Source of the DNA: Arthrobacter sp. FB24
Lineage (GTDB): Bacteria > Actinomycetota > Actinomycetes > Actinomycetales > Micrococcaceae
NCBI RefSeq assembly: GCF_000196235.1
Contig: NC_008541.1
Span: 992,001-1,056,000, forward strand
Reading direction: 5' to 3'
Length of the DNA: 64,000 nucleotides
Positions 31,175 to 37,751 of the stretch are shown piece by piece. Made by a program: the position numbers and the translations under genes. How positions within the stretch are numbered: position 1 is the first letter of the stretch; each line of letters opens with the position of its first letter. A model generated the notes under the pieces. It saw only the letters and a list, made by a program, of their open reading frames with translations. It made no database searches and had not been told where the DNA came from.

Positions 31175-32560
31175 ATGTCGAACTATGTGACCCTTCTGGG
31201 GTCCACTCCTGCCGGGGAGGACCCGAGGCCGCCACGCAAGCCACGCGCTTCCACTTTCATTGTTGGGGCCATCACGGCGCTCTTTATGCTCCTGGGTGCG
31301 CTCAGCGGCGGTCTTGGGGGCGCACTGGTTTTCCTGGCCATCGCGGCGGGACTCACCGGCCTCTATGTCCTGGCGACTGGCCGCCGTTCCTGGGCGTGGC
31401 TTCCGGCCAGGCGTAAGGCGGGGGCTATTGCCCTGGCCGTTTCATTTGCACTGTTTATCGGCGGCGCCGTTGCCTTGCCGCGGACTTCCTCGTGGAACGC
31501 TGAGGCGGCCTCATCCGAGGGCACCGCCTCGCCCGCCGCCGCTGCGGCGAGTGCAACTGCCAAGGCGACGCCTGCGCCGTCGTCCTCTCCGACTGCGCAG
31601 GAAACGGGCGAGCCGCTGGATCCTGACAGTCCTTACCTCCTGGCACAGGGGGTCAACGTAACGGCACCGAAGGCCCAGCCGGCTTTCGCCACCAAGGCGG
31701 TGGACCTGCTGGCCACCCTTGCCATCAAGGGCCGGGCGCCGAAGACGGGCTATGACCGTGCCCTGTTCGGGCAGGCGTGGGCCGACGTTGACCGGAACGG
31801 CTGCGACACCCGGAACGACATCCTCAAACGTGACCTGACGGGCATCACCTACACGAACAGCGTCCCTTGCAAGGTGCAGTCGGGAACGCTGGCGGATCCC
31901 TACACGGGCACCAGCATCAGCTTCCTGCGGGGGAGCGGGACCAGCAGCAAGGTCCAGATCGACCATGTTGTGGCACTGAGCGACGCCTGGCAGAAGGGCG
32001 CGCAGCAGCTGACCACGGAACAGCGGACAGCCTTCGCCAATGATCCGCTGAACCTGCAGGCGACCGACGGTCCCACGAACATCAAAAAGGGCGACGGCGA
32101 CGCCGCCACCTGGCTGCCGCCGAACAAGGGTTTCCGGTGTGAATACGTTGCCCGGCAGATCTCCGTGAAGGCAACGTACAGCCTGTGGGTCACCCAGGCG
32201 GAGCACGATGCGATGGCCCGGATCCTGGCCGATTGCTCGGGCCAGCTGGCACCGACGAACGAGCAGGCCCCCGCCGCTGCGGCACCCGCACCGGCGCCGG
32301 CACCCGCCGCCGTCGAACCTGCGCCTTTTGTGGCAGTGCCCGCCCCGGCAGCGCCTGCTCCCGCTGTGGTGGCCCCGGCTCCTGTTGCTCCGGCACCTGT
32401 TGTCCAGGCTCCAGCTCCCGTTGCGCCGGCCCCGGCTGCCGCCTACTACGCCAACTGTGCCGCGGCCAGGGCTGCAGGTGCGGCGCCGCTGTACGCAGGG
32501 TCGGCAGGCTACCGCCCGGCGCTGGACCGCGACTCCGACGGCATTGCCTGCGAAAGCTAA
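31175..32560 (+). CDS. Membrane-anchored HNH nuclease (DUF1524) with Excalibur domain
   Basis: Protein of 461 residues. After about 30 polar residues come two to three membrane helices (about 30-60 and 85-105), a Ser/Ala linker, then the DUF1524 HNH nuclease domain: IDHVVALSDAWQKGAQQL supplies the catalytic His, and FANDPLNLQATDGPTNIKKGDGDAATWLPPN the rest of the beta-beta-alpha metal site. A Pro/Ala-rich linker of about 70 residues leads to a C-terminal Excalibur domain (YYANCAAARAAGAAPLYAGSAGYRPALDRDSDGIACES) with the DxDxDG calcium loop. The nuclease is probably displayed outside the cell. GGGGGAAAAG precedes the ATG. The next gene carries the same Excalibur module. Confidence 0.9.
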   Translation: MSNYVTLLGSTPAGEDPRPPRKPRASTFIVGAITALFMLLGALSGGLGGALVFLAIAAGLTGLYVLATGRRSWAWLPARRKAGAIALAVSFALFIGGAVALPRTSSWNAEAASSEGTASPAAAAASATAKATPAPSSSPTAQETGEPLDPDSPYLLAQGVNVTAPKAQPAFATKAVDLLATLAIKGRAPKTGYDRALFGQAWADVDRNGCDTRNDILKRDLTGITYTNSVPCKVQSGTLADPYTGTSISFLRGSGTSSKVQIDHVVALSDAWQKGAQQLTTEQRTAFANDPLNLQATDGPTNIKKGDGDAATWLPPNKGFRCEYVARQISVKATYSLWVTQAEHDAMARILADCSGQLAPTNEQAPAAAAPAPAPAPAAVEPAPFVAVPAPAAPAPAVVAPAPVAPAPVVQAPAPVAPAPAAAYYANCAAARAAGAAPLYAGSAGYRPALDRDSDGIACES

Positions 32561-32604
32561 CCAGACCAATCACTCCACCGTTCCAAACTTTCCTAGGGGG
32601 AAAA

Positions 32605-33303
32605 ATGAAAAAGATGTTGACACTGGTAGTCCTAACCGGCCTCATGCTGACCGGATGCGGCGGTCAGCAGGCGGCATCGTCCGCAACCGCTGTTGCAGAC
32701 GTCTCAGACGCTGTCACGGTTCCCAGCGTGATGGGCATGACCCTGGATAAGGCCACGGATCAGCTGGAAAACCTTGGGCTCAAGGTCAAGGCGGACGACA
32801 CCGCCGACGGCAAAATGATCATGTCCAAGAAGAACTGGCAGGTGACGTCCCAGGACCCCGCGGAGGGCGCGAAGGTGGCGAAGGACTCCACCGTGCACCT
32901 CGGCGTCAAGAACCTCGAGAAGGAGGCGGCGGAAAAGGCCGCCGCGGACAAGGCGGCTGCAGAGAAGGCTGCGGCGGCAAAGGCTGCTGCGGACAAGGCT
33001 GCGGCCGATAAGGCCGCGGCAGATAAGGCGGCAGCTGACAAGGCTGCAGCAGATGCGGCTGCGGCTGCTGCCGCGAAGGTGGCCGCCGAGCAGGCTGCGG
33101 CTCAAAAGGCAGCCCCTCCGGCGCAGGTTCCCGCTGCGCCGGCGCCGGCACCGGCGCCGGTAGCTCCCGCCGCTCCGGCCACCGCGTACTATCCCAACTG
33201 TGCCGCCGTCAAGGCCGCAGGTGCCGCGCCGCTCTACTCCGGCCAGCCCGGTTACAGCACCAGCCTTGACCGCGATCGCGACGGCGTGGCCTGCGAGAAA
33301 TAG
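32605..33303 (+). CDS. PASTA-Excalibur lipoprotein
   Basis: Predicted lipoprotein of 232 residues: lipobox LTGC at about residue 16, one PASTA domain (VTVPSVMGMTLDKATDQLENLGLKVKADD, VTSQDPAEGAKVAKDSTVHLGV), then a long Ala/Lys helix built of KAAADKAAAEK-type repeats (about residues 105-165), a Pro/Ala linker and an Excalibur domain nearly identical in form to that of the preceding nuclease (YYPNCAAVKAAGAAPLYSGQPGYSTSLDRDRDGVACEK). PASTA modules bind peptidoglycan, so it may hold the pair at the cell wall. AGGGGG precedes the ATG by 4 bases; 44 bases separate it from the nuclease gene. Confidence 0.88.
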   Translation: MKKMLTLVVLTGLMLTGCGGQQAASSATAVADVSDAVTVPSVMGMTLDKATDQLENLGLKVKADDTADGKMIMSKKNWQVTSQDPAEGAKVAKDSTVHLGVKNLEKEAAEKAAADKAAAEKAAAAKAAADKAAADKAAADKAAADKAAADAAAAAAAKVAAEQAAAQKAAPPAQVPAAPAPAPAPVAPAAPATAYYPNCAAVKAAGAAPLYSGQPGYSTSLDRDRDGVACEK

Positions 33304-33408: not shown

Positions 33409-34632
33409 CTAGTGCACCGTTTCCCTCTGCCGTGGCTCTGGTTCGCGCTCCTTAGGACTTAGGATCGAGTCGGATTTGAGCGCAAGCAGCCCTGACAGCA
33501 GCGCCGCGGCCAAGATTGACGCAAACGCCATGGACGACGAAACACCCATGAGATACGTGGCAGCCGTGAGGCTGAGTGGGCTGGATACCGTCTCCAGAAA
33601 CTGGACGGCCGTCATGGTCTTGCCGAGATCAGTGGAGGGAATCTGTTGGTGGATAAGGGATGTGCGCCCCACGGTCCAGGCAATGCCTCCGGTACAGACG
33701 ATAAAGAGAGCACTGGCCACAGCGATCCACGAAGGGATGAAGAAGAGCAACGAGCCCCCAGCCATAAGCCACGAGGAACGTTGCATGAGAATGTTTGGAC
33801 GCCAACTGGAAAACAGGCCGGACAGGATTGATCCGCAAAACAGGCCTGCGGCCGCGGCCGCGCCAACAATCCCCACTTCGGTAGTTGAGCCGCCCAGGCC
33901 AGCCGAGGTCTGGAAGATGGCCAGGGTTGAGAGAGGCGCGGACAGAAAGCCGATCAGGACAACTGTCCCGGCGAAACGCCACCAACCGTGGAGTTGAGAG
34001 AGTCTCCTGTACCCCGCGGAAAGTTCCTGAATAAAGCCCGGCCGATCGGGCACGTTGCCTGGACGGTCCGGCCACGGCAGGAAGTTCATGATCATTGCGA
34101 TGACGGTGAATGAGACAGCGTCCACTGCCAGCAACCACCAGGGACCCCAGACAGCACTCAAAGCTCCGCCGATGGCCGGCCCCACGATGGAAGCCGATGT
34201 CCATGCCGTAGAGACTGATGCATTGAACTTTGCCGTGCCGTCGCCATACATTTTCGGGATTGCAACGAAGGTTGCAGTTCTTGCGAACATGTCGAGGCTG
34301 CCGCGCAGGAAGGCGCCGAGTACAAGAACCCAAAATGGTGTGTGCCAGGGCCCGATAAGCAGCGCCATAGCTGCAACTACCAGCGCCTGACCCCAGTATC
34401 CAATGTGGGTCATGGTGCGCGGCGACATACGGTCGGCCAGTCCTCCGATGAGCACTCCGGGAAAGGCCTTTGGCAGCTGGGATGCGACGGCAACGATGGA
34501 CATCTGGGCAAGGCTGCCGCTGGTTTGCAGCACGATGAGCGGCAGGGCGATGTTGTACGCGCCCCCGCCAAGCGAATTAACCCACATTCCCGTCAGGTGC
34601 AGGCGCCGCTGCCATGGCTTTGCTGGAGACAA
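33409..34632 (-). CDS. MFS exporter of the microcin C-like operon (MccC role)
   Basis: Major facilitator protein of about 407 residues with 12 helices, of the EntS/MccC-like MFS-3 type (GGLADRMSPRTMTHIGYWGQALVV is the loop motif; VGPAIGGALSAVWGPWWLLAVDAVSF follows). Last gene of the operon headed by the mccA-like peptide; by position it should export the modified peptide, giving both secretion and part of self-protection. The start TTG at 34632 is directly behind the stop of the HTTM-like gene and has AAGGAAAG just upstream; a TTG 12 codons earlier (34668) is the alternative. DNA is visibly AT-richer than the flanks, as in the whole operon. Confidence 0.85.
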   Translation of the reverse strand: MSPAKPWQRRLHLTGMWVNSLGGGAYNIALPLIVLQTSGSLAQMSIVAVASQLPKAFPGVLIGGLADRMSPRTMTHIGYWGQALVVAAMALLIGPWHTPFWVLVLGAFLRGSLDMFARTATFVAIPKMYGDGTAKFNASVSTAWTSASIVGPAIGGALSAVWGPWWLLAVDAVSFTVIAMIMNFLPWPDRPGNVPDRPGFIQELSAGYRRLSQLHGWWRFAGTVVLIGFLSAPLSTLAIFQTSAGLGGSTTEVGIVGAAAAAGLFCGSILSGLFSSWRPNILMQRSSWLMAGGSLLFFIPSWIAVASALFIVCTGGIAWTVGRTSLIHQQIPSTDLGKTMTAVQFLETVSSPLSLTAATYLMGVSSSMAFASILAAALLSGLLALKSDSILSPKEREPEPRQRETVH

Positions 34633-34633
34633 T

Positions 34634-35470
34634 TTACTTTCCTTGGTACGCGCGGAGGATGGTGGCAAGATCGGTCTGCTTTTCCACCGAGGTCAGTAGC
34701 CATTGCATGGCGGGAGCCTGCCAAAAGCTGATGTTCCAGGTACGGGCGACCATCACGTGGAAGAGGGTGGTGCAGCATGGGACCAGGATCCGCCATCTTC
34801 CGGGAAGAACGAGGGCGAGGGGCAGGGCGAGCAATTCGAGGAAGGGAATTGCCCGGGTAATGACTCGAACGGGCCGGGCAAATCTCTCTTGGGCAAATGG
34901 GTGGCCGTCAGATGCCCCTAAATGGGAGTGGTAGATGTGATTCGCATCGCCGCGCCGGACCCAGGCGTCGAAGCCGTGGACCAGTTTGGACAGGCCAGCC
35001 TGGGTGTAGGGCAAATACAGAGCCACACGTGACACTGAGAGCGGCAAGTTGGCGAGCCGCGGGTCGGTCGTTGCGGAGTGGGGCCACTGGCCTACGGCAA
35101 GGACCGCCTCGATAAACGTGTCATAGGGCCACCGTCCCGGAAGCGACCGGGCATCCGCGGCACGAGTTCCAAGAAAGACCCCCAGGGCTGCCCGCCGGAG
35201 CCAGGAAGAGTGCTTTGAATCGGGACTCTTGCATAGCTCGCTCGCTGCTGCTGCCAGGAGCAAGCCGGCCGCTATTCGTTCAGCCCCCGGGACGTAGCGG
35301 GAAGTGGAATCACGGTCCGAATTCTCGGCCGGAGGATCGAGGGCAGCTTTGTAGTCCTGCATAGCAGCCGGGCCTGGTCGTAACGTAACTGCCACTGCAG
35401 CGACGATCCACAATGCGGCAGTGCGTGCCTGCCGCAAACTTGCTGGCTTACTGCGCATCTGATGGAACAT
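34634..35470 (-). CDS. HTTM-like (vitamin K carboxylase-related) membrane protein
   Basis: Membrane protein of 278 residues. The segment YLPYTQAGLSKLVHGFDAWVRRGD followed by helices ending in LFHVMVARTWNISFW is the pattern of HTTM-domain proteins, distant relatives of vitamin K-dependent gamma-carboxylase. About six hydrophobic helices are seen. It starts inside the preceding 160-residue gene (23-base overlap) and its stop is followed after one base by the MFS start, so translation is coupled. In this operon it could modify the peptide or nucleotide, or give immunity; that is a guess. HTTM assignment itself rests on motif memory. Confidence 0.65.
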   Translation of the reverse strand: MFHQMRSKPASLRQARTAALWIVAAVAVTLRPGPAAMQDYKAALDPPAENSDRDSTSRYVPGAERIAAGLLLAAAASELCKSPDSKHSSWLRRAALGVFLGTRAADARSLPGRWPYDTFIEAVLAVGQWPHSATTDPRLANLPLSVSRVALYLPYTQAGLSKLVHGFDAWVRRGDANHIYHSHLGASDGHPFAQERFARPVRVITRAIPFLELLALPLALVLPGRWRILVPCCTTLFHVMVARTWNISFWQAPAMQWLLTSVEKQTDLATILRAYQGK

Positions 35471-35930
35471 AGGTATACACGACTTCCCTTTCTTCGGGCA
35501 TTCCCCGCACAGTGGTCTCCACCCAGATTTCCATCCTGGCTAGGGGAACGTTGGGAAGATTTGCGGGGGCTCTAACCTCGTCAAATGGCCTCCACCGATC
35601 GCTGCGCAGTCTGCGGAGAATCCTTTGGCACAGGACTTGTTTCGGATGGTCCCCGTCACCCATGAAAACGTCTGCGAACACTGCCCCGGCCCGGAAGAAC
35701 TGGGTCGGAATGCAGTTTGCGGGCCCGCAGGCCACTACCGTTCCGTCTGACAGGTGGAATTCGACGGCGAAACGGGAGAGTCGGTCGCCGAACTTCGCAT
35801 TGAACATGTTGTTTGATGCGATGGGCCAGAAGTTCCTGTTGGCAACGGTCGACGCCAGTGATGCGACGGTAAACGCCCCGGCCAGTGCCACCAGTGCCTT
35901 GCCGCTGTTGACGTCAGGTGCACGCAGCAC
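35448..35930 (-). CDS. Small membrane protein of the microcin C-like operon
   Basis: Unrecognised protein of 160 residues with one N-terminal membrane helix (KALVALAGAFTVASLASTVANRNFW) followed by a soluble domain (MFNAKFGDRLSRFAVEFHLSDGTVVACGPANCIPTQFFRAGAVFADVF, MEIWVETTVRGMPEEREVVYTYVP). Such WPxxxMF-type proteins often accompany HTTM proteins, as here. Start GTG lies inside the end of the mccB-like gene (17-base overlap), with CAGGAA 8 bases upstream. Its 3' end overlaps the HTTM gene. Role unknown; probably works together with the HTTM protein. Confidence 0.7.
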   Translation of the reverse strand: MLRAPDVNSGKALVALAGAFTVASLASTVANRNFWPIASNNMFNAKFGDRLSRFAVEFHLSDGTVVACGPANCIPTQFFRAGAVFADVFMGDGDHPKQVLCQRILRRLRSDRWRPFDEVRAPANLPNVPLARMEIWVETTVRGMPEEREVVYTYVPSDAQ

Positions 35931-36951
35931 AGTGGATGTTCCTGGCGAAGTCTTCAAATTCCGAGGACAGCTCCAGTGAGTCAAAGACCAGTCGCCGACC
36001 ATCAAGCTGCGTCGAGCCGGTGAGCAGATAGCGGAACACTTCCATGGCGGCAATGGACGCCACGATGGAGTTAAGGGGGCCGAAGCTGGGCGCCTGGTAG
36101 GCCGAGTTGAAATTTGTCGTAGTGAGGGATGCCGTGGAGTTCGTCCGCCCGTCGTTATCTGTTGCCGCGCACAGCAGGCATGGCGTTTCACCCGGCCTGA
36201 CGACCGGCCCCACCACTCCACGCGTGTCCTGGTATCCGGCGCAGGTAAACGGAGTTCCGGAGATAATGGACGCTTCGTTGGACCACTCGAGCACTTCCTG
36301 GGGAGTATCGGCGGAAACAACCACGAAGTCTGAATCGTGAAAGATTGGCAGGAGGTCGTCAACGCCTGAGATCATTGACGGGACTTCGATGGTGTTGATG
36401 CCGGGAGCTCGAAGCGAAAGATTCTTTGCGGCCGCTTCGATCTTCGATTTGCCGACGTCTTGGGCAGTGAAGAGATACTGCCGGGTGAGGTTGCTTTCCT
36501 CGACGGAATCTCCGTCCACCAGCACGATGGAACCGACCCCTGCCGTCGCGAGCTGCATGGCCACGTTGGTTCCGATGCCGCCGACGCCGATGAGCGCTAC
36601 CGTTCGTGCGCGGAGCAAGTCACTGGCTCCCGGTCCTGTGCCGTGAGCAAGCGCGAAGTACAGATCATGGCGGCTGTATTGCCCTGAAAGGTCGATCCTG
36701 TAGGGCACCAAAATCTCGGCGTCGATGAGTTCCTCAACGATTTGCCCGGAGCTTTCGCCAAGCAGTAGTTGGGCCTCGTTGCCCAGTTCATCGAGTGTCC
36801 GCGGTTGCGATGCAAATCCAAGCAATTCCGCCAGCCCGTCTGGTGCGTCTTCAATTTCGATTGCATTGGGTGGCGCCAATCCGATGTGCACGGAGGTGTC
36901 TGTTGTGACGACGGGAAGCGACTGCTTGAGGGAGTAGGTCGTGGCTGCCAA
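35914..36951 (-). CDS. mccB: MccB-like peptide adenylyltransferase (ThiF/E1 family)
   Basis: E1-like enzyme of 345 residues that should join a nucleotide to the C-terminal Asn of a ribosomal peptide. Residues 1-95 fit a peptide-binding RRE domain. The adenylation domain has LIGVGGIGTNVA (122-127), VDGDSVEESNLTRQYLF, DVGKSKIEAA, FVVVSADTP, PFTCAGYQDTRGVVGPVVRPGETPCLLC, FGPLNSIVASIAAMEVFRYL and a terminal CAAC. These match E. coli MccB block by block, including NLTRQ-x-LF-x-x-x-DVGK and the two zinc CxxC pairs, and the length (about 350) fits. Start TTG at 36951 has GGAGG 6 bases upstream; a GTG inside the hairpin (36999) is unlikely. Preceded by the mccA-like gene and hairpin. Confidence 0.88.
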   Translation of the reverse strand: MAATTYSLKQSLPVVTTDTSVHIGLAPPNAIEIEDAPDGLAELLGFASQPRTLDELGNEAQLLLGESSGQIVEELIDAEILVPYRIDLSGQYSRHDLYFALAHGTGPGASDLLRARTVALIGVGGIGTNVAMQLATAGVGSIVLVDGDSVEESNLTRQYLFTAQDVGKSKIEAAAKNLSLRAPGINTIEVPSMISGVDDLLPIFHDSDFVVVSADTPQEVLEWSNEASIISGTPFTCAGYQDTRGVVGPVVRPGETPCLLCAATDNDGRTNSTASLTTTNFNSAYQAPSFGPLNSIVASIAAMEVFRYLLTGSTQLDGRRLVFDSLELSSEFEDFARNIHCAACT

Positions 36952-36969
36952 TTCTTGCCTCCAATTAGG

Positions 36970-37000
36970 AGTGGGGACCACGCAATGCGTGGTCCCCACT
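36970..37000 (-). terminator. Intergenic hairpin between mccA- and mccB-like genes
   Basis: On the minus strand AGTGGGGACCACGC, loop ATT, GCGTGGTCCCCACT: a perfect 14-bp stem 13 bases after the peptide stop and just before the mccB ribosome site. No T run follows in the operon direction, so it may be a partial terminator or RNA-stabilising element that keeps peptide mRNA more abundant than enzyme mRNA. A T run on the other side would make it a terminator for plus-strand transcripts. Confidence 0.75.
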
Positions 37001-37013
37001 AATTTTTATTTGT

Positions 37014-37073
37014 TCAGTTGAACACGAAGTTCAGCTTGGAACGGCGCTTGGTCAGTCGCTTGAGCTTCAGCAC
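37014..37073 (-). CDS. mccA: MccA-like precursor peptide, 19 residues
   Basis: Tiny gene encoding MLKLKRLTKRRSKLNFVFN, starting at GTG with AAGAGGAGT 7-8 bases upstream. The peptide is strongly basic (seven Lys/Arg) and ends in Asn, the residue to which MccB enzymes attach the nucleotide. It begins MLK and has the length I recall for the Bacillus amyloliquefaciens precursor. It is followed by a hairpin and the mccB-like gene, the arrangement of microcin C operons. A basic peptide would suit uptake by target cells. An in-frame GTG three codons earlier overlaps the ribosome site and is less likely. Too short for routine gene finders. Confidence 0.82.
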   Translation of the reverse strand: MLKLKRLTKRRSKLNFVFN

Positions 37074-37199: not shown

Positions 37200-37751
37200 A
37201 TGGCGTATAGAGTCGTGTGCATGTTAGAACTTGTTGTCCCGGATGCATCCTTCTACCCGTCGTTTGCCGAGTCTCACCGCGAGTGGGACGGCGCCCACCA
37301 GGACGGTGCCGGCCTGTTGCCAGACGACGATGTCACCAGCCCGGAGGGGTTCGCTGACTGGGTCCGAAGACTCTCGCGTGCTGAACGGGCTGCCGAGGCG
37401 GGCGGCATTGTTCCTTGCACCTATCGCTGGATCGCGGAGGGCTCACGGTATGTGGGGGCAATTGCCTTCCGCCACTACCTCACGCCGGCCCTCCTGAACT
37501 CGGGCGGGCATATCGGATACGGGGTCCGGCCGTCAGACCGTGGGCGGGGGGCGGCGTCGTGGGCCCTGCAGGAAGTGTGTGCCCGTTTGGCTGCGCAGGA
37601 AGAGCCTGACCGCGTTCTCCTGACCTGCGATGATGCAAATGCAGCGTCAGCCAGGACTATCGAGCGTTGCGGGGGCCTGCTCGAGGACGTGAGGGTGGGC
37701 GGGAACGGGCGGCCATTTAGGCGCTACTGGATTGATGTGGCGCGGTCCTAA
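37200..37751 (+). CDS. GNAT acetyltransferase divergent from the microcin C-like operon
   Basis: Acetyltransferase of 183 residues of the COG3981 type: YRWIAEGSRYVGAIAFRHYLTPALLNSGGHIGYGVRPSDRGRGAASWALQEV carries the acetyl-CoA loop (R-G-R-G-A), and VLLTCDDANAASARTIERCGGLLED is the family C-terminal motif. This group is common and mostly uncharacterised. It starts 126 bases from the mccA-like gene in the opposite direction. MccE in E. coli detoxifies processed microcin C by acetylation through a GNAT domain, so an immunity role is possible, but the sequence gives no specific support. ATG 37200 or 37221 may be the start. Confidence 0.85.
   Translation: MAYRVVCMLELVVPDASFYPSFAESHREWDGAHQDGAGLLPDDDVTSPEGFADWVRRLSRAERAAEAGGIVPCTYRWIAEGSRYVGAIAFRHYLTPALLNSGGHIGYGVRPSDRGRGAASWALQEVCARLAAQEEPDRVLLTCDDANAASARTIERCGGLLEDVRVGGNGRPFRRYWIDVARS

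Follow-up and report, generated by a model that had tools for sequence, protein, structure and literature searches.

Antibiotics that act as Trojan-horse inhibitors of aminoacyl-tRNA synthetases are a small group; their target is clear, and the part responsible for uptake can be exchanged. In those of the microcin C (McC) type, the enzyme MccB turns the C-terminal Asn of a peptide into an aspartamide linked through its nitrogen to a nucleotide, an exporter releases the conjugate, and processing in the target cell yields an inhibitor of aspartyl-tRNA synthetase (AspRS). The minimal mcc set has been described as mccA, mccB and an exporter gene, and all McC-like compounds studied are reported to target AspRS (PMC9239234, PMC6495379). 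MccB enzymes have been divided into a clade whose precursors have 7-8 residues and a smaller one whose precursors have 17-56 (PMC6495379), and in vitro work identified the mcc product of Nocardia vaccinii as a peptidyl-cytidylate (PMC9239234). The locus described here lies in a stretch of 64,000 nt from Arthrobacter sp. FB24 (assembly GCF_000196235.1, contig NC_008541.1, positions 992,001-1,056,000, forward strand), referred to in full as the window. Its minus strand carries, from 37073 to 33409, the order mccA, hairpin, mccB, orf3, orf4 and a gene for an MFS exporter, each of the last three overlapping or abutting the gene before it. This is very probably an McC-like mcc operon of the long-precursor branch, whose product would be a peptidyl-nucleotide, carrying cytidine or adenosine monophosphate (CMP or AMP), that acts as a Trojan-horse inhibitor of AspRS. 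Operons of this kind are already known; what is new is the orf3-orf4 module.

The original prediction had described a short basic peptide ending in Asn with its own ribosome site, then a hairpin, and both were found. The mccA-like precursor gene (37014..37073, minus strand) has a GTG start, the Shine-Dalgarno (SD) sequence GAGGAG and 19 codons ending in Asn and a stop, with MLKLKRLTKRRSKLNFVFN as product, and between it and mccB lies a perfect hairpin of 13 bp with a 3-nt loop (36971..36999, minus strand). When a rule was applied that accepts SD-preceded frames of 6-45 amino acids (aa) with Asn as last residue, two of the 191 short SD-preceded frames on both strands of the window passed, one of them being mccA; in a 400-kb stretch of Streptomyces chromosome taken for comparison, 3 of 1031 passed. 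The Asn-ending frame is more than chance. Of 206 genomes of the genus, ten have this mccB (E <= 1e-60), and in all ten an Asn-ending peptide adjoins it, so that peptide and terminal Asn are both kept and no mccB of a near relative lacks such an upstream frame. The ten genomes, which include the six Arthrobacter and Paenarthrobacter loci L007-L012 (counted once), hold four versions of the peptide: MLKLKRLTKRRSKLNFVFN, MLKLKRLAKRRSKLNFVFN, MLKLKRLAKRRSKLNLVFN and MLKIKRLAKRRSKLNFVFN. Across nine mccA copies, 14 of the 18 post-start codons are identical and the second codon positions invariant; in the stretch from -60 to -21 upstream, identity is 43%, an underestimate given that the comparison was unaligned. 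The hairpin is kept in relatives with paired changes on both arms, as in L010, where GGGGACC/GGTCCCC has become GGGGGCC/GGCCCCC.

The same arrangement is seen in an Escherichia coli mcc plasmid, where the printed heptapeptide, followed by a hairpin-like repeat, was located upstream of mccB; the heptapeptide is absent from the features listed there, in a gene table that is incomplete. The window operon thus resembles E. coli mccABCDEF in the mccA-hairpin-mccB order, the place of the hairpin, the MccB motifs and the MFS exporter. It differs in having a 19-mer instead of a heptapeptide, an MccB of another branch and no mccD, mccE or mccF. In precursor length it can also be likened to the peptide-carboxymethyl-cytidine cluster of Bacillus amyloliquefaciens, which has a 19-residue precursor (PMC12250964).

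Scanning one genome per species gave 45 loci, 35 of which (L007-L041) were examined; the other ten (L042-L051), whose matches were short or very distant, entered neither the scans nor the tree. The closest named relatives are Arthrobacter and Paenarthrobacter, which agrees with the Micrococcaceae placement proposed from the sequence, and mccA, mccB (split in L011), orf3, orf4, the MFS gene and a GNAT gene are present in all six Micrococcaceae loci. Five loci of a Streptomyces type, one of them deposited as Microtetraspora, share the order orf3-orf4-mccA-MFS-mccB, orf4 being found by profile, and all five encode the peptide MLKI[IV]KVV[AVT]A[RK]AVSGRAFN with a hairpin after it. The B. amyloliquefaciens precursor reportedly begins MLKI.KV and ends in Asn. 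A third peptide group is represented by L019 (7868-12989 of its contig, in a metagenome-assembled genome (MAG) labelled gammaproteobacterial), where the 18-residue precursor MLNIKRITARVLRGRLKN is followed by genes for a 567-aa MccB, an MccD homologue, an MccE1-like decarboxylase and an MFS protein. The feature that the C-termini of all three groups have in common is the terminal Asn. Of the 29 loci that are more distant, only the five of Streptomyces type and L019 yielded a clear Asn-ending peptide, and in the remaining 23 the peptide scan was negative or doubtful (doubtful, for example, in L023, L028 and L039). The scan gives false negatives, because it missed the published 21-residue precursor of N. 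vaccinii (L020; PMC9239234). Candidate frames MNTVPGN (L028, 6615) and MGNTN (L023, 778) stand upstream of MccB homologues in alphaproteobacterial and proteobacterial MAGs, respectively. In L018 (7995-14270, a Streptococcus MAG), a 602-aa MccB of the methyltransferase-fused kind (compare P0021) is accompanied by a carbamoyltransferase-like gene (recognised by eye), a GNAT-methyltransferase-like fusion and an MFS-like gene, and no precursor was identified in this locus.

The gene following the hairpin (35914..36951, minus strand; TTG start, SD GGAGG) encodes an MccB-type, ThiF/E1-like peptide nucleotidyltransferase of 345 aa. In a phmmer search against the PDB, E. coli MccB came first (E 1.9e-37), well ahead of UBA7 (1.9e-18), ThiF (1.5e-16), PaaA (3.5e-16) and MoeB (3.3e-14). 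The block-by-block correspondence that had been proposed is confirmed, E. coli MccB having aligned counterparts of the NLTRQ-x-LF, DVGK and VVSAD blocks and of the CxxC motifs, of which the window enzyme has two. An alignment of 19 sequences that includes this enzyme shows little or no variation at the GxGGIG, N-x-TRQ, SAD and CxxC residues. Its first 88 residues gave a probability of 90.7% when compared by profile with the N-terminal domain of E. coli- and Nocardiopsis-type MccBs. By these sequence comparisons the enzyme is an MccB and not a ThiF or MoeB protein, and its N-terminus resembles a RiPP recognition element (RiPP, ribosomally synthesised and post-translationally modified peptide).

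A tree of 63 rows places the window enzyme within a 31-row long-precursor branch (support 96/97), together with N. vaccinii MccB (L020), methyltransferase-fused MccBs, the Streptomyces set and L019, and apart from a 22-row branch that holds the E. coli and Nocardiopsis MccBs (support 98/91). The rows chosen comprise 23 of 86 proteins, with three MoeB-like proteins and one ThiF/MoeB-like frame of the window's own genome (L002) as outgroup, and the split mccB of L011 was left out. The two branches fit the published split of MccB clades by precursor length. E. coli is not the closest parallel to the enzyme by this tree, which puts N. vaccinii MccB in the branch instead. MccBs of the P0014 kind, sought across the order, were found in one of 327 genomes, the window's own.

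This position bears on the nucleotide that would be attached. Because the window MccB shares its branch with an MccB whose product is a proven peptidyl-cytidylate, CMP seems somewhat likelier than AMP, and cytidylation would be at least as likely as adenylation. The operon is like the N. vaccinii and Yersinia pseudotuberculosis mcc systems (peptidyl-cytidylate) in that N. vaccinii MccB falls in the same branch, and in its long precursor and MFS exporter. Unlike them, it has no fused carboxymethyltransferase, mccS, mccD, mccE or mccG, and it has orf3-orf4. Arthrobacter is named once in PMC9239234, for a standalone MccG-like gene.

Downstream of mccB, three genes that overlap or abut one another and end in an MFS exporter had been predicted, and all three were found. 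orf3 (about 35448..35930, minus strand; ~160 aa) overlaps the end of mccB, orf4 (34634..35470, minus strand) overlaps orf3 and encodes a predicted multi-helix membrane protein of 278 aa, and the exporter gene, with a putative MccC-like role, occupies 33409..34632 on the minus strand (TTG at 34632, SD AAGGA; an alternative TTG at 34668 gives a 419-aa frame). The exporter matches MFS_1 (E 2e-19) and has homologues at 37-42% identity in the Streptomyces-type and L019 clusters. No Pfam or NCBIfam model matched orf3 or orf4. Profiles built for the two proteins match the identical 16 of 60 stretches, namely 11 mccB loci (L007-L017) and five from Streptomyces in which no mccB was found. Neither profile matched in the 24 remaining mccB loci, some of them truncated by the end of a contig, or in the 20 control windows, so the pair is present in 11 of the 35 mccB loci examined.

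From profile comparison, orf4 is a membrane protein that belongs to the HTTM superfamily as a remote member and is kin of SdpB. In hhalign the orf4 family reached 97.2% with the HTTM set (238 columns) and 95.2% with the SdpB set, the controls giving 0.03% (MFS), 0.2% (MccB) and 0.2% (SdpA), and the invariant Lys of its YxQxGLSK motif aligns with the HTTM Lys. Single members of the orf4 family showed weak Pfam matches (HTTM in 13 of 43, LMF1 in 27 of 43), and the window protein by itself showed none. orf3 combines one predicted N-terminal helix with a beta-rich domain and a conserved NxNxWP....NMF motif, and belongs to no known family. Since it stands beside orf4 in an SdpAB-like layout of one helix plus HTTM, identity with SdpA was considered; it was ruled out despite this layout (hhalign 0.4%), as was kinship to the NxWxLFxPxP proteins that neighbour other HTTM genes in seven loci (1.0%). 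The comparison with SDP thus extends to the orf4 profile match and the one-helix partner, and stops at orf3, which shows homology neither to SdpA nor to the proteins of the seven loci, and at the substrate, here a putative peptidyl-nucleotide. AlphaFold2 models (43-row alignment for orf4) reached a pLDDT of 74.7 for orf3 and 57.8 for orf4, and neither matched a PDB entry in Foldseek at E <= 0.001; the fold claim is for these reasons limited to the predicted helix and strands of orf3. orf4 alone was rejected as an mcc marker, its profile also matching HTTM-like proteins in 19 other genomes of the 394 of the class. These matches are partial, and no mccB or orf3 lies in the 2-3.6 kb around them. 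HTTM proteins are widespread in general, which weighs against a tight tie between the pair and mcc. A literature search found no work joining microcin and HTTM; PMC4010828, PMC8323819 and PMC5152938, which may list such clusters, lay outside its coverage, and an earlier mention of these loci in print may exist.

The loci without mccB suggest a broader setting for the pair. In the Streptomyces genus to which L017 belongs, 8 of 256 genomes contain orf3. Three of these have an mcc operon (L013, L017 and L172, the contig of L014); in the other five (L167-L171, in G1037, G900, G993, G948 and G1029) no mccB was found in the 16-18 kb of sequence covered. Gene calls in the five were made with ten queries (tblastn, E <= 1e-10), of which the AsnA-like, alanyl-tRNA synthetase (AlaRS) and AlaRS-like queries were drawn from L168, L167 and L171, their own locus being counted, and the MccD, MccE and MccF queries were external. 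All five hold an AsnA/AsnRS-like class II enzyme, four an MccF homologue and three an MccD homologue. A truncated AlaRS-like gene of the L171 kind occurs in three (L168, L170 and L171), and in L167 a full AlaRS gene stands beside a weakly matching truncated AlaRS-like gene. L168 also has an MccE1-like decarboxylase and a non-ribosomal peptide synthetase module, and L169-L171 have ATP-grasp ligases. The peptidase of L170 finds its best matches in solved MccF proteins (9e-46). None of the ten queries matched in 20 control windows of 20 kb from G948. orf3 adjoins orf4 in L169-L171, and in L167 and L168 an MccD homologue lies between them. The five loci yielded no SD-preceded short frame ending in Asn except for one in L171, which lies immediately ahead of the AsnA-like gene, points the other way and is taken as chance.

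Ascamycin offers a parallel, since its cluster includes both AcmD, an extra, full and more resistant AlaRS, and AcmF, a truncated AlaRS-like transferase that moves alanine onto the nucleoside (PMC12945691). The full and truncated AlaRS genes near the pair in L167 and the truncated gene in L168, L170 and L171 are alike by gene description rather than by acm sequence; unlike ascamycin, these four loci also hold MccD-, MccF- or AsnA-like genes. By their gene content, the five loci look like clusters for non-ribosomal aminoacyl- or peptidyl-nucleotides. There is close to an even chance, if slightly less, that orf3-orf4 is a membrane module marking a wider family of aminoacyl- and peptidyl-nucleotide antibiotics of both ribosomal and MccB-less kinds. 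In the MccB-less clusters, the AsnA-like, AlaRS-like, ATP-grasp, MccD-like and MccF-like proteins would build an McC-like warhead with no ribosomal peptide, and the HTTM pair would act on the aminoacyl-nucleotide, the part common to both kinds of cluster.

For the window operon, the following sequence of steps can be proposed. The ribosome would make the 19-residue basic peptide, the hairpin probably keeping mccA mRNA above the level of the downstream genes. The N-terminal recognition domain of MccB would bind the peptide, and its C-terminal Asn would be activated with a nucleoside triphosphate, giving an aspartamide joined via nitrogen to the nucleotide phosphate. The most likely role for orf3-orf4 would be a membrane-bound step on the nucleotide conjugate, such as tailoring or processing before export, with self-protection in second place. 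The conjugate would be exported by the MFS protein and carried into competitors by its cationic peptide, which peptidases would then strip, and the released isoaspartyl-nucleotide would block AspRS.

Several points weigh against this account. The mcc assignment is drawn from genes and sequence, and in the tree several rows are flagged by the program for long branches and odd composition, the E. coli row being among those of odd composition. Cytidine-type clusters mostly carry a fused or separate carboxymethyltransferase (PMC12250964). In the window, neither a carboxymethyltransferase nor the carboxy-S-adenosylmethionine synthase MccS is found among the operon genes, and the mccB has no methyltransferase domain, so that AMP stays a candidate beside CMP. 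The 11 pair-bearing mcc loci yielded no gene resembling mccE or mccF, and the neighbouring GNAT has no PDB match, so the operon offers no clear source of self-immunity. The locus is also rare within the genus, and in G063 (L011) the mccB (C21:48804-49834) breaks near residue 233 into two frames, which either decay or an assembly error would explain. The rarity and patchiness of the locus and this split gene would also fit a cluster that has decayed and fallen silent in the window genome, which is very improbable here: no reading frame is broken, there are ribosome sites, and both peptide and hairpin have been conserved. Hardly more probable is that the enzyme cyclises the peptide to a lactam, thiolactone or indolylamide in the manner of PaaA, GRC or IndF, the product being a cyclic or signalling peptide. 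ThiF-like enzymes do perform several such reactions (PMC12150305, PMC12250964), and the hydrophobic C-terminal FVFN and strongly basic character of the peptide may recall some signalling or membrane peptides. The closest solved relative is nevertheless MccB, and the E-value of PaaA is weaker by some 21 orders of magnitude; the enzyme shares a branch with N. vaccinii MccB and with L019, which has MccD- and MccE1-like genes; and what the C-termini of the three peptide groups share is Asn.

As regards protection of the producer, orf3-orf4 could be primarily a self-immunity or export module that keeps the toxic aminoacyl-nucleotide out of the producer and takes no part in building it. The pair is membrane-bound by prediction, and no MccD, MccE or MccF homologue was found in the 11 mcc loci that bear it (tblastn, E <= 1e-10), but this absence is weak evidence, as at the same threshold such homologues were likewise not found in 20 of the 24 other mccB loci; for the same reason the idea that the pair replaces mccD, mccE and mccF was dropped. 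The pair coexists with MccF-like genes in four of the five loci without mccB, and so is no simple stand-in for hydrolytic immunity, and in the SDP system the HTTM protein SdpB has a maturation role. The HTTM protein of a linaridin RiPP cluster, likened to orf4 by description and not by sequence, is also assumed to act in maturation (PMC9927463). An immunity module is for these reasons rather unlikely, and a membrane-bound step on the conjugate is preferred for the pair.

Somewhat better placed, though still doubtful, is the divergent GNAT acetyltransferase gene beside mccA (37200..37751, plus strand), which as an immunity gene would acetylate the processed aminoacyl-nucleotide as MccE does. 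A copy at 71% identity or more stands beside mccA in all ten mccB genomes, compared with a copy in 28 of the 196 genus genomes without mccB (one of these partial and with a stop), and the place beside mccA is kept in two chromosomal contexts, as judged by comparing neighbours by eye. In addition, P0017, to which the 567-aa MccB of L019 is nearly identical, has a GNAT fused to MccB. Against this, the gene also occurs at these sites without mcc, and may be a bystander: in G020 (L093) it directly follows the Excalibur gene, an apparent empty mcc site, in G101 another gene lies between the two, and in G248 and G034 it stands in a Paenarthrobacter-type context without mcc (by eye). The window GNAT found no PDB match at E <= 0.1, and its match to the fused GNAT is weak (E 0.004). 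Given its presence in genomes without mcc, it is not accepted as a proven operon gene. On the other side of the window operon, directly downstream (31175-33303), are genes for a GmrSD-C/Excalibur protein and a second Excalibur-like protein.

An operon of this type in Micrococcaceae and Streptomyces, equipped with a new accessory module, widens the class of Trojan-horse synthetase inhibitors among soil actinobacteria, and its short, synthesisable precursor suits a direct test of the enzyme. If the HTTM pair does carry out a step common to ribosomal and non-ribosomal nucleotide antibiotics, it would serve genome mining as a handle on MccB-less clusters that otherwise escape notice, and would offer a defined system for learning what bacterial HTTM proteins do.

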